NCBI GenBank assembly: GCA_022225965.2
Contig: JAKJXP020000160.1
Location: forward strand, 1 to 64,000
DNA length: 64,000 nucleotides
Direction of reading: 5' to 3'
From: Diatrype stigma
Lineage: Eukaryota > Ascomycota > Sordariomycetes > Xylariales > Diatrypaceae
Positions 31,678 to 34,689 of the stretch are shown here, piece after piece; the first letter of the stretch is position 1; every line of letters begins with the position of its first letter. The notes below the pieces were generated by a model. The model was not told the origin of the DNA. It worked only from the letters and a program-made list of their open reading frames with translations, and made no database searches. A program made the position numbers and the translations under genes.

Positions 31678-32820
31678 ATGAGCAGCCCGAGGCGAAGAAT
31701 CGAGACAGATGTGAGTTACAGGCAACCGGTGTTTGCACGCATAGGGGCGTTGGTTGTGTGGCCAGGTGACTGACTGAGCGTTTTGGTTTAGGTCATGAAG
31801 TATGATGCTATGCAGCCCCCCGATATCCCGTGTCTGCCGGACTACGTCGCTGACAGCTGTGTAGGATGTATGGATAATCGCATTCGGCCAACCTACAATG
31901 GGAAACTAACCTTAGCTACTAGGCTCATGAGTGACTATGAGGTTACTCTGGTGAATGACAACAGTACTGTCCCCTCTCCTGCTTGACCCGACTCGGTCCT
32001 TCTCATGGCTAACTGGACGTGATGTAGTGTAAGCCACACTGCATGCATGCGACAGTATAAAGTATCTCGGGTCTGATTCTTACGCTACAACTTTTGCAGG
32101 CAGGAGTTCTACGTGCGATTTAAAGGGCCGGCCGAAAGTTAGTTCCCAGCCATACGCTCCGTATGCCTGAAGTAAGGTTCATGTCAAGCTTACGCTCCGT
32201 CTAGCCCCTTTTGAGAACGGCGTCTGGAAGGTCCACGTCGAGTTGCCCGATCAATACCCGTACAAGTCTCCCAGCATCGGCTTCGTGAACCGCATCTTCC
32301 ACCCGAACATCGATGAGCTGTAAGTTGGCCCGGGACCCTGGGAATGGGGTGGAGCGGGGGAACAAAGAGACTACAGGGGGAAGAAAGAAGCCCGAGAACT
32401 AACACGGATGGATGCGGCAACCACAGCTCGGGATCGGTCTGCCTGGATGTCATTAACCAAACCTGGTCGCCGATGTTCGACATGATCAATATCTTCGAGG
32501 TCTTCCTACCCCAGTTGCTGCGGTATCCGAACCCCGCCGATCCCCTGAACGGTGAAGCTGCTGCACTGCTCATGCGGGAGCCTAAGAGTTACGATATCAA
32601 AGTCAAGGGTACGGATCCTACTTCTGCTTGCCGAATATGAAATTATTAGTGAAGGCTCCGGTCATGACTGACAGGGAAAGTAGAATACGTCCAGAAATAC
32701 GCCAGCAAGGACGCCGCGGACGATGGCGGTGCCGAGAGCGAGGAGGATGACGACATGTCCTCTGTCGCCAGCTTTGGAGACGACGACGACCAACCTGCCG
32801 GCCAGATGGACGACGTATAG
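31678..32820 (+). CDS. ubc8: Ubiquitin-conjugating enzyme E2 (Ubc8/UBE2H type) with microexons
   Basis: Nine exons: 31678-31710, 31792-31799 (8 nt), 31865-31867 (3 nt), 31923-31963, 32028 (1 nt), 32100-32137, 32205-32319, 32427-32608 and 32684-32820. Their sum is 558 nt, encoding 185 aa. The product starts [11 protein letters not shown] and reads [20 protein letters not shown], then [23 protein letters not shown] and the catalytic cysteine lie in [16 protein letters not shown], and INQTWSP and an acidic C-terminal tail follow. This is the UBE2H/Ubc8 class, which ubiquitinates histones in vitro and gluconeogenic enzymes in yeast (GID pathway). The 3-nt and 1-nt exons are inferred because only they restore the conserved residues in frame; each is bounded by good AG and GT signals. 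Without them one residue is lost near position 15, and the NDN-MQ-EF junction has no in-frame strong site. Confidence 0.9.
31865..31867 (+). other. ubc8: Candidate 3-nt microexon of ubc8 (GAT)
   Basis: GAT is flanked by a 65-bp intron ending GTGTAG (CTGAC branch about 11 nt upstream) and a 55-bp intron starting GTATGG (CTAAC branch near its end). Inclusion turns AA|G into AAG ATG, giving VMKMLMSD, the length seen in Ubc8/UBE2H proteins. Skipping keeps the frame but deletes one residue. Confidence 0.65.
32028..32028 (+). other. ubc8: Candidate 1-nt microexon of ubc8 (T)
   Basis: A single T sits between a 64-bp intron (GTACTG donor, GCTAAC branch at 32008-32013, TAG acceptor) and a 71-bp intron (GTAAGC donor, TTTTGCAG acceptor). 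Exon 4 ends in A and exon 6 begins with G, so splicing makes ATG and gives the conserved NDN-M-QEF. Direct joining of exon 4 to exon 6 shifts the frame. Confidence 0.65.
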
Positions 32821-33396: not shown

Positions 33397-34689
33397 TCAA
33401 TCCGAATCCGATGCGTACTCAACTAGTGCGGTAGATGAAGCCGCCGCCCCCTTAGCTGAGCGCTCGTCTCCTTTCGTCTCTTCCGTCGACGCTTTCGTTT
33501 CTTGGGATCCCTCTTCCTGCCTCTTCCTCTTGATGCCGAGTATCCTAGGCGGAGGAGCCCTGGCACCTTCCCCGCCGTTGCGATCCTGTGGTGTTGATAA
33601 AAACGGGTCTTGCGTAGCCCGCGTATTCCCCACGATCTCCGAGATGATGTTCTCGCGCATCTGCGCGGCCGCGATCTCCGACTTCAGCTGCTTCGTGTTC
33701 TTGCTCTTGTTCTTGCTCTTGTCTTTGTGCTTTTGGTGATCCCTCCCCCCGCTTATTCCCTTGTTCGAGGCACCCCTGTCTCTCGGCCGGTTCAGCGCAT
33801 CATTGCCACTACTGCTCGAAGCATCCCTACTGAACAGAGGCTTCGATAGCACCTTATCCACCCCCAATCCCACCACGCCACCACTAGTACTGCCGCCCTC
33901 CTCGCTAGCAGCAGTGGTAGCGGGGCCGCTGCCGAAGTCGACGAGGGCGGCCCGCCGCGCGTCCTCGGCCCGCTCGCTCGCCGTGGCGGGCGCCAGCTCG
34001 ATACCCAAGCTCATGCGGTCGCGGAGGTCGTCGTCGGCGCCGGTCTCGCGCTCGCGCGCCTGGCGCTCGGCCCGGAACGCGCGCCGCAGCGCGCGGTTCC
34101 GCGCGTAGGGGTCCTCCCAGGCGCGCGCGCTGGCGTCCGCCAGGTCGCCGATGCGGTGCCGCGCCGCCGCCTCGCGCGCGCGGTCCTCGATCGTCGTCTC
34201 CAGGTTGGCGAAGGCGTCGCCGCGGCGGCGGTCGCGCTCCTTGTCGGTGAGGATCGGCGCCATGCCTATCCCCGTCACGGACACCAGGTCGCCGTCGTCA
34301 TCGTCATCGCCGGCCGTCGTGCGGTCCCGCTGCTTCCCGCCCTCGGTCACGACGTAGGCGGTGCGGGCCGGGTCGGTGCGGATCTCGAGGGCGCCGCCGC
34401 AGTCGGCGTGGCGCAGGCGGAAGGCGAAGATGGGCGAGCTGTGGTACGAGCCCACGCGGCGCTTCTCGGCGTTGAACCGCACGCCCTGGCCGATCAGCGT
34501 CGGCTTCGGGCAGTGCGCGCACCACACCGCGAACGGCATCTCGAACCGCACCGTCAGGATCCCCTGCGACGCCAGCTTGGACGCCCGCGCGCCGAGCGCG
34601 TGCCGCTTGCCCGCCGCCTGGTTGCCCGACGGCCCGACCGTGCCCTCCAGGTCCGGGGGCACGTACCGCCCCATGTTGAAGCCCTGCAT
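33397..34689 (-). CDS. saf4: CCDC130/Saf4-type CWC16 splicing factor
   Basis: Intronless, 430 aa. It starts MQGFNMGRYVPPDLEGT and carries the CWC16 (Yju2/CCDC130) core within the first 125 residues: SQGILTVRFEMPFAVWCAHC, GQGVRFNAEKRRVGSYHSSPIF, HADCG and IRTDPARTAYVV. WCAHC and the later HADC cysteine match the conserved zinc-binding positions. The basic, low-complexity rest contains coiled-coil-like Arg/Glu segments, a Lys/Asn/Ser run (DKSKNKSKNTKQ) and a KRKR signal near the C-terminus. CCDC130 and Yju2 proteins act at the catalytic spliceosome; the CCDC130 branch is assigned from the N-terminal sequence. Nuclear. Convergent with ubc8. Confidence 0.92.
   Translation of the reverse strand: MQGFNMGRYVPPDLEGTVGPSGNQAAGKRHALGARASKLASQGILTVRFEMPFAVWCAHCPKPTLIGQGVRFNAEKRRVGSYHSSPIFAFRLRHADCGGALEIRTDPARTAYVVTEGGKQRDRTTAGDDDDDGDLVSVTGIGMAPILTDKERDRRRGDAFANLETTIEDRAREAAARHRIGDLADASARAWEDPYARNRALRRAFRAERQARERETGADDDLRDRMSLGIELAPATASERAEDARRAALVDFGSGPATTAASEEGGSTSGGVVGLGVDKVLSKPLFSRDASSSSGNDALNRPRDRGASNKGISGGRDHQKHKDKSKNKSKNTKQLKSEIAAAQMRENIISEIVGNTRATQDPFLSTPQDRNGGEGARAPPPRILGIKRKRQEEGSQETKASTEETKGDERSAKGAAASSTALVEYASDSD

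Follow-up and report, generated by a model that had tools for sequence, protein, structure and literature searches.

Single-nucleotide exons have been described in plants, fungi and organelles. Plant APC11 contains a single-nucleotide exon (PMC4674806), and the 1-nt exons of APC11 and VPS55 are conserved in land plants (PMC8831610). The 1-nt exon of Fusarium CYP621A was called the first for a fungal gene by its authors (PMC12940212), Ophiostoma mitochondrial rnl has a 1-nt exon between group II introns (a similar Ceratocystis case is cited there; PMC12308204), and placozoan mitochondrial cox1 is reported to have another (PMC5436844). Annotations also include 1-bp exons without experimental support (PMC3064661). 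The first-pass annotation of the locus studied here had named APC11 as the known precedent for a 1-nt exon; that precedent stands, and VPS55, Fusarium CYP621A, placozoan cox1 and fungal mitochondrial rnl extend it. The present locus is ubc8 of Diatrype stigma, analysed within a window comprising the whole 64,000-nt stretch of DNA.

The ubc8 gene of Diatrype stigma

The ubc8 gene (Ubc8/UBE2H-type ubiquitin-conjugating enzyme) occupied 31678-32820 on the + strand. From first to last, its nine exons were 33, 8, 3, 41, 1, 38, 115, 182 and 137 nt long. The coding total of this nine-exon model was 558 nt, i.e., 185 amino acids and a stop codon. All eight introns were GT-AG introns of 55-107 nt with a CTNAY-like branch, the branch A lying 11-24 nt from the intron end. 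The small size of exons 2 (8 nt) and 3 (3 nt, GAT) went unmentioned in the first-pass text. The features were as follows:

31678..31710, + strand: ubc8 exon 1; 33 nt, encoding 11 residues; agrees with homologues
31792..31799, + strand: exon 2, microexon GTCATGAA; 8 nt, with CTGAC-branch introns of 81 and 65 nt either side
31865..31867, + strand: exon 3, microexon GAT; 3 nt, completing K14 and beginning M15
31868..31922, + strand: intron 3; 55 nt, GTATGG...CTAAC...TAG, splitting M15 as AT|G
31923..31963, + strand: exon 4; 41 nt, ending GAC AAC A, the A being base 1 of the predicted Met-29 codon
31964..32027, + strand: intron 4; 64 nt, donor GTACTG, branch CTAAC (15 nt after its A), acceptor TAG
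32028..32028, + strand: predicted exon 5, a lone T that would supply base 2 of the Met-29 codon
32029..32099, + strand: intron 5; 71 nt, donor GTAAGC, branch CTTAC or CTGAT, acceptor TTTTGCAG
32100..32137, + strand: exon 6; 38 nt, beginning G CAG GAG TTC, the G being base 3 of the Met-29 codon
32205..32319, + strand: exon 7; 115 nt
32427..32608, + strand: exon 8; 182 nt, containing C85 of SVCLD (taken here to be the active-site cysteine); part matches Pfam UQ_con
32684..32820, + strand: exon 9; 137 nt, with the stop codon and the sequence for an acidic tail; acceptor TAG at 32681-32683

For intron 8, a CAG acceptor at 32672-32674 was rejected, as it gave 188 amino acids with a three-residue insertion relative to homologues. 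The TAG at 32681-32683 was assigned instead because it restores KVKEYVQ as in homologues. The CAG overlaps the CTGAC branch site of intron 8, and the TAG 9 nt further on is apparently used.

The encoded protein matched Pfam UQ_con (E 6.5e-39). The best PDB sequence was 8pmq_E (named E2-24 kDa and presumably yeast Ubc8; E 7.7e-68), with 8pjn_2 (E2 H; E 6.4e-66) also among the best. With a UBC core and Ubc8 and UBE2H as its closest solved relatives, the protein belongs to the Ubc8/UBE2H class of E2 enzymes. At the place matching NDNMQEF of the window protein, 8pmq_E reads NDSMQEF. No second ubc8 was found in the D. stigma genome (49.0 Mb, 224 contigs), where 16 matches comprised three exons of ubc8 itself and 13 others that were 28-42% identical. 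When the protein was compared downstream of the junction only, the named relatives closest to it among the matches listed were Nemania, Xylaria and Daldinia (~96%), all presumably Xylariales.

The adjoining frame at 33397-34689 on the - strand, convergent with ubc8, encoded a protein of the Saf4/Yju2 family of splicing factors (Pfam PF04502, E 6e-61). Its presence beside ubc8 is probably a coincidence. No Rfam match was found in the window at gathering thresholds.

Splice paths across the junction

Exon 4 ended in codon phase 1 (A, 31963) and exon 6 started in phase 2 (G, 32100). Enumeration of splice paths over 31923-32137, allowing up to two GT-AG introns, each 40 nt or longer, gave 203 paths, 33 of which reached the downstream frame without a stop. 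NDNMQEF was obtained from a single path, in which introns 31964-32027 and 32029-32099 were removed and the T at 32028 was kept between them. Skipping this T caused a frameshift with a stop after 68 residues, while retention of intron 4 or intron 5 led to a stop after 35 or 29 residues, respectively; all of these stops preceded C85 of SVCLD.

One base thus separated a complete acceptor from a complete donor (TAG-T-GTAAGC), with branches and far ends present, and this base was needed both for the frame and for the conserved methionine. Recursive splicing at zero-length exons uses AG|GT ratchet points. At 32026-32030 the sequence was AG-T-GT, and a zero-length exon was rejected because the T keeps AG from directly abutting GT. 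The donor of intron 4 (GTACTG) was weak at +5; intron 5 had the better donor (GTAAGC) and intron 4 the better branch (CTAAC).

These results bear out most of the first-pass description. The exon end GAC AAC A, both introns, the lone T and G CAG GAG TTC were present on the + strand as it had reported. Its reading of A+T+G as the methionine of NDN-M-QEF corresponded to the sole NDNMQEF path among the 203 tried, and the direct exon 4 to exon 6 join shifted the frame as it had said. Its assignment to ubc8 and its length of 185 residues agreed with the Pfam and PDB matches and with the 558-nt model, a multiple of three as claimed.

To measure how often such an arrangement arises by chance, the two ends of the 136-nt interval were fixed and the 122 nt between them were put through 20,000 dinucleotide shuffles. 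In 3.4% of shuffles an AG-T-GT appeared with an intron of 50 nt or more on either side, falling to 0.36% with a GTRNG donor and to 0.14% with a CTRAY branch as well. Within the interval, the arrangement thus exceeds what chance would give. A strict intron-N-intron scan of both strands of the window returned one site, 32028. In shuffled windows (+ strand only) a site was found in two of six, neither with T. Since intron-N-intron sites also arise by chance in a stretch as long as the window, the motif says little by itself; the evidential weight for the predicted 1-nt exon comes from the frame and the homologues.

The junction in homologous proteins

Three protein searches (the best 120 of 5,611, 5,714 and 5,374 matches) gave a pool of 183 homologues. 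Forty-nine came from short contigs (sources lgn, jgi, ena and merc; 913-7,280 nt where a length was given, none being given for P0042). Because near-full-length Ubc8 proteins were found on such short contigs, these were taken to derive from spliced RNA, an origin on which the sources are silent and which best explains the combination. The other 134 were named records. Five of these, from two plants, a rust, Dipodascopsis and Saitoella, lay outside Pezizomycotina and did not enter the counts, which left 129 annotated Pezizomycotina proteins, including one MAG of unassigned class. As the records are related to one another, formal P values were given no weight.

Exactly one residue, a methionine, stood between the ND[N/S]-type motif and QE/SE in all 49 short-contig proteins (46 MQE, three MSE). 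Among the pooled best matches, an exact single methionine was found in 17 of the 129 annotated Pezizomycotina proteins and 112 were without the exact junction; three annotated proteins reading NDN-SM-QE were not counted as exact. The comparison with Ubc8 of related fungi that the first-pass annotation had proposed came out in favour of its model: P0002 (contigs of at most 1,663 nt) was 98% identical to the window protein over 185 amino acids and read NDNMQEF. Four of the 49 (P0056, P0108, P0110 and P0116) read NDSMQEF...FYGP as in the rust record and, judged by this resemblance, are probably not Pezizomycotina; the other 45 carried no taxon.

Control junctions were matched by pattern in both sets. 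Among the 129 annotated proteins the exon 1/2, 6/7, 7/8 and 8/9 junctions were matched in 111, 124, 124 and 119, and among the 49 short-contig proteins in 44, 49, 46 and 43, respectively. As some of the 49 also missed control patterns, part of the annotated misses is natural variation or truncation. The residue pattern of the 3-nt exon was present in 49 of 49 transcript-like proteins vs. 53 of 129 annotated Pezizomycotina proteins (76 without). With the control junctions mostly fine, annotation failure was concentrated at the 1-nt-exon junction and the 3-nt exon. The loss of the 3-nt pattern from annotated records, together with its retention in every transcript-like protein, indicates that ubc8 seems to carry two ultra-short exons (3 nt and 1 nt), each beside a split methionine codon.

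By class, non-exact records made up 63 of 71 Sordariomycetes, 28 of 32 Dothideomycetes, 10 of 10 Leotiomycetes, seven of nine Eurotiomycetes, three of three Pezizomycetes and the single Geoglossomycete. Among the exact records were the MAG and two lichen formers. Species with exact records may lack one or both introns, or these 17 records may have been annotated with RNA or through the T exon. These counts bear out the earlier statement that an exon of this kind escapes ordinary gene finders, though some of the 17 may have been annotated through the T. A search for ubc8 DNA of relatives returned none from viral contigs and only three prokaryotic E2-like loci from genome contigs.

Altogether, 105 of the anomalous annotated junctions were parsed. 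The seven that were not parsed were counted as non-exact, and NDNMQEF was found in none of them within the first 75 residues, the part inspected. All but one of the 105 opened with a residue of an ANN codon, 53 of them with S, as read-through of A|GT would give; the sole misfit was D (P0041). All 90 anomalies that kept QE/SE ended on an NNG-encodable residue, which was R in 45, as read-through of AG|G gives. ANN starts and NNG ends together imply that the edges A| and |G look conserved, with one base modulo three missing between them.

Particular mis-translations agreed with these edges. Nineteen anomalies read S-x-QE (x = K, M, T, E, Q, L or A), as would be expected if the predictor had shifted a GTNNGT donor four bases to its second GT. 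Eleven read NDN-K-F, which fits A joined to the AG of CAA-GAG. Eight read M-[F/S/Y]-[V/A], the residues that A + T would give if the donor after the T, GTNNGT or GTNNGC, were read through; these came from Fusarium, Beauveria, Hortaea, Septoria, Friedmanniomyces, Coniosporium, Aureobasidium and Aspergillus. A Leotiomycete record outside these eight (P0174) read NDN-MYD..., which fits T and a GTAYGA donor. The T itself was thus visible by read-through in Sordariomycete, Dothideomycete and Eurotiomycete records and in P0174; for Pezizomycetes and Geoglossum the support consisted of edges and frame only. The Hyaloscypha record P0175 (NDN-SRSST...) resembled a direct exon 4-6 join with a frameshift. 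Penicillium chrysogenum was annotated NDN-K-FYV, and a short-contig protein identical downstream of the junction had NDNMQEF. The same was true of the anomalous Ilyonectria record, whose identical downstream counterpart from a short contig also had NDNMQEF.

Some records departed from this scheme. Seven annotated proteins of exact length read NDN-R-[Q/S]E, with R for M: P0063, P0078, P0107, P0123, P0149, P0161 and P0173, from Monilinia, Dothistroma, Ascochyta, Baudoinia, Trichophaea, Terfezia and Microthyrium. In the transcript-like proteins closest to them, which were 81-95% identical downstream, the residue was M. Perhaps predictors mistook a G for the 1-nt exon, or the seven species are different in this respect; otherwise the seven lie outside the edge scheme. 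The insert of P0055 (MHPLSE...) began with M and did not fit a donor after T.

Judged from these mis-translated proteins, the T exon of ubc8 is probably not peculiar to D. stigma and would be common to many filamentous ascomycetes, as one ancient exon that annotation has mostly overlooked in several classes. As the edges A| and |G fit many other Pezizomycotina records, both introns were most likely present in an early common ancestor and then kept.

Alternative readings, proposed splicing and known systems

With GTCCCC at 31969 as donor and the second AG in GCAGGCAG (32103) as acceptor, a single 135-nt intron would give NDN-ST-EF without a 1-nt exon. This path is in frame and free of stops and leaves the protein length unchanged; its donor is poor, it replaces the conserved MQ by ST, a pair found at the junction in none of the 49 transcript-like homologues, and the presumed yeast Ubc8 likewise speaks against it with NDSMQEF. 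It is very improbable, in agreement with the first-pass view of it. An equally improbable reading is a stwintron, i.e., a 136-nt unit at 31964-32099 made of two nested introns, the inner one inserted into a splice signal of the outer one, with no exon between. The two introns do almost abut, and stwintrons are described from Hypoxylaceae and Xylariaceae (PMC9024468, PMC12403724). Against this, donor, branch and acceptor are all intact in intron 4 as well as in intron 5, the G|GT that a [D1,2] stwintron needs at the end of exon 4 is absent, and removal of the whole 136 nt gives the frameshift and the stop after 68 residues. Least probable of all, to the point of being negligible, is an assembly error or a pseudogene, the real ubc8 having a plain ATG or a single intron. 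One assembly was read; the remainder of ubc8 is intact and conserved, and records from relatives fit the same A| and |G edges with the same residue missing.

The ubc8 pre-mRNA almost certainly contains two complete U2-type introns with the 1-nt exon T between them, removed sequentially so that A+T+G forms Met-29 and NDNMQEF is in frame, both introns being likely ancestral. Fungal introns of such short length are recognised across the intron. Under intron definition, introns 4 and 5 would be removed in succession, since 3' and 5' splice sites one base apart could hardly be engaged together; either order would leave intact splice sites. The authors of the APC11 study argue likewise for sequential removal (PMC4674806). 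Where the T was missed or either intron kept, a stop would arise before the active-site cysteine, and such mis-spliced RNA may decay. Because of these early stops, the lone T, if fixed since the Pezizomycotina ancestor, could conceivably act as a gate whose inclusion rate sets the amount of functional Ubc8, although this is doubtful. If so, Ubc8-dependent (GID-type) protein turnover would be tied to splicing fidelity.

No 1-nt exon in ubc8/UBE2H was found in the literature searched, for which the enzyme name was used in few queries and which left most subscription papers and preprints outside its coverage. Single-nucleotide exons were already known; the ubc8 case appears to be new and unusually widespread. 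Judged by that literature, CYP621A was the first nuclear gene of a fungus with a 1-nt exon (PMC12940212); ubc8 would be the second, with an exon that is apparently more widely conserved. It is a core ubiquitin-pathway gene in easily handled fungi, so that spliceosome handling of splice sites one base apart becomes testable in simple organisms. The 112 of 129 annotated Pezizomycotina homologues without the exact junction, among the pooled best matches, represent a concrete, correctable error in many public records. The approach, in which transcript-like proteins are compared with annotated ones and exon edges are read from errors, could reveal further such exons.

APC11 and VPS55 are like ubc8 in having a deeply conserved 1-nt coding exon, missed by annotation, between two spliceosomal introns, and APC11 also belongs to the ubiquitin pathway. 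They differ in gene and kingdom, and the plant exons were established by RNA-seq and RT-PCR, whereas that of ubc8 is deduced from proteins and DNA anatomy. CYP621A is likewise a fungal nuclear gene whose 1-nt exon is the middle base of a conserved codon (Gly there, A|T|G in ubc8); in both genes the neighbouring exon edges are in phases 1 and 2 and do not allow a direct join. The CYP621A exon is a G in a rarely expressed P450 with 20 Fusarium orthologues and transcript support; that of ubc8 is a T, placed in several classes from protein records. Ophiostoma rnl and placozoan cox1 also keep one exonic base between two introns, but are mitochondrial, the Ophiostoma case lying in an rRNA gene with group II introns. 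Stwintrons ([D1,2] and others; PMC9024468, PMC12403724, PMC5639578) share with ubc8 neighbouring introns that are removed successively in ascomycetes; in ubc8 the splice signals are all intact and a single exonic base is left. Zero-length recursive sites likewise have an adjoining acceptor and donor, whereas in ubc8 the T would stay in the mRNA.
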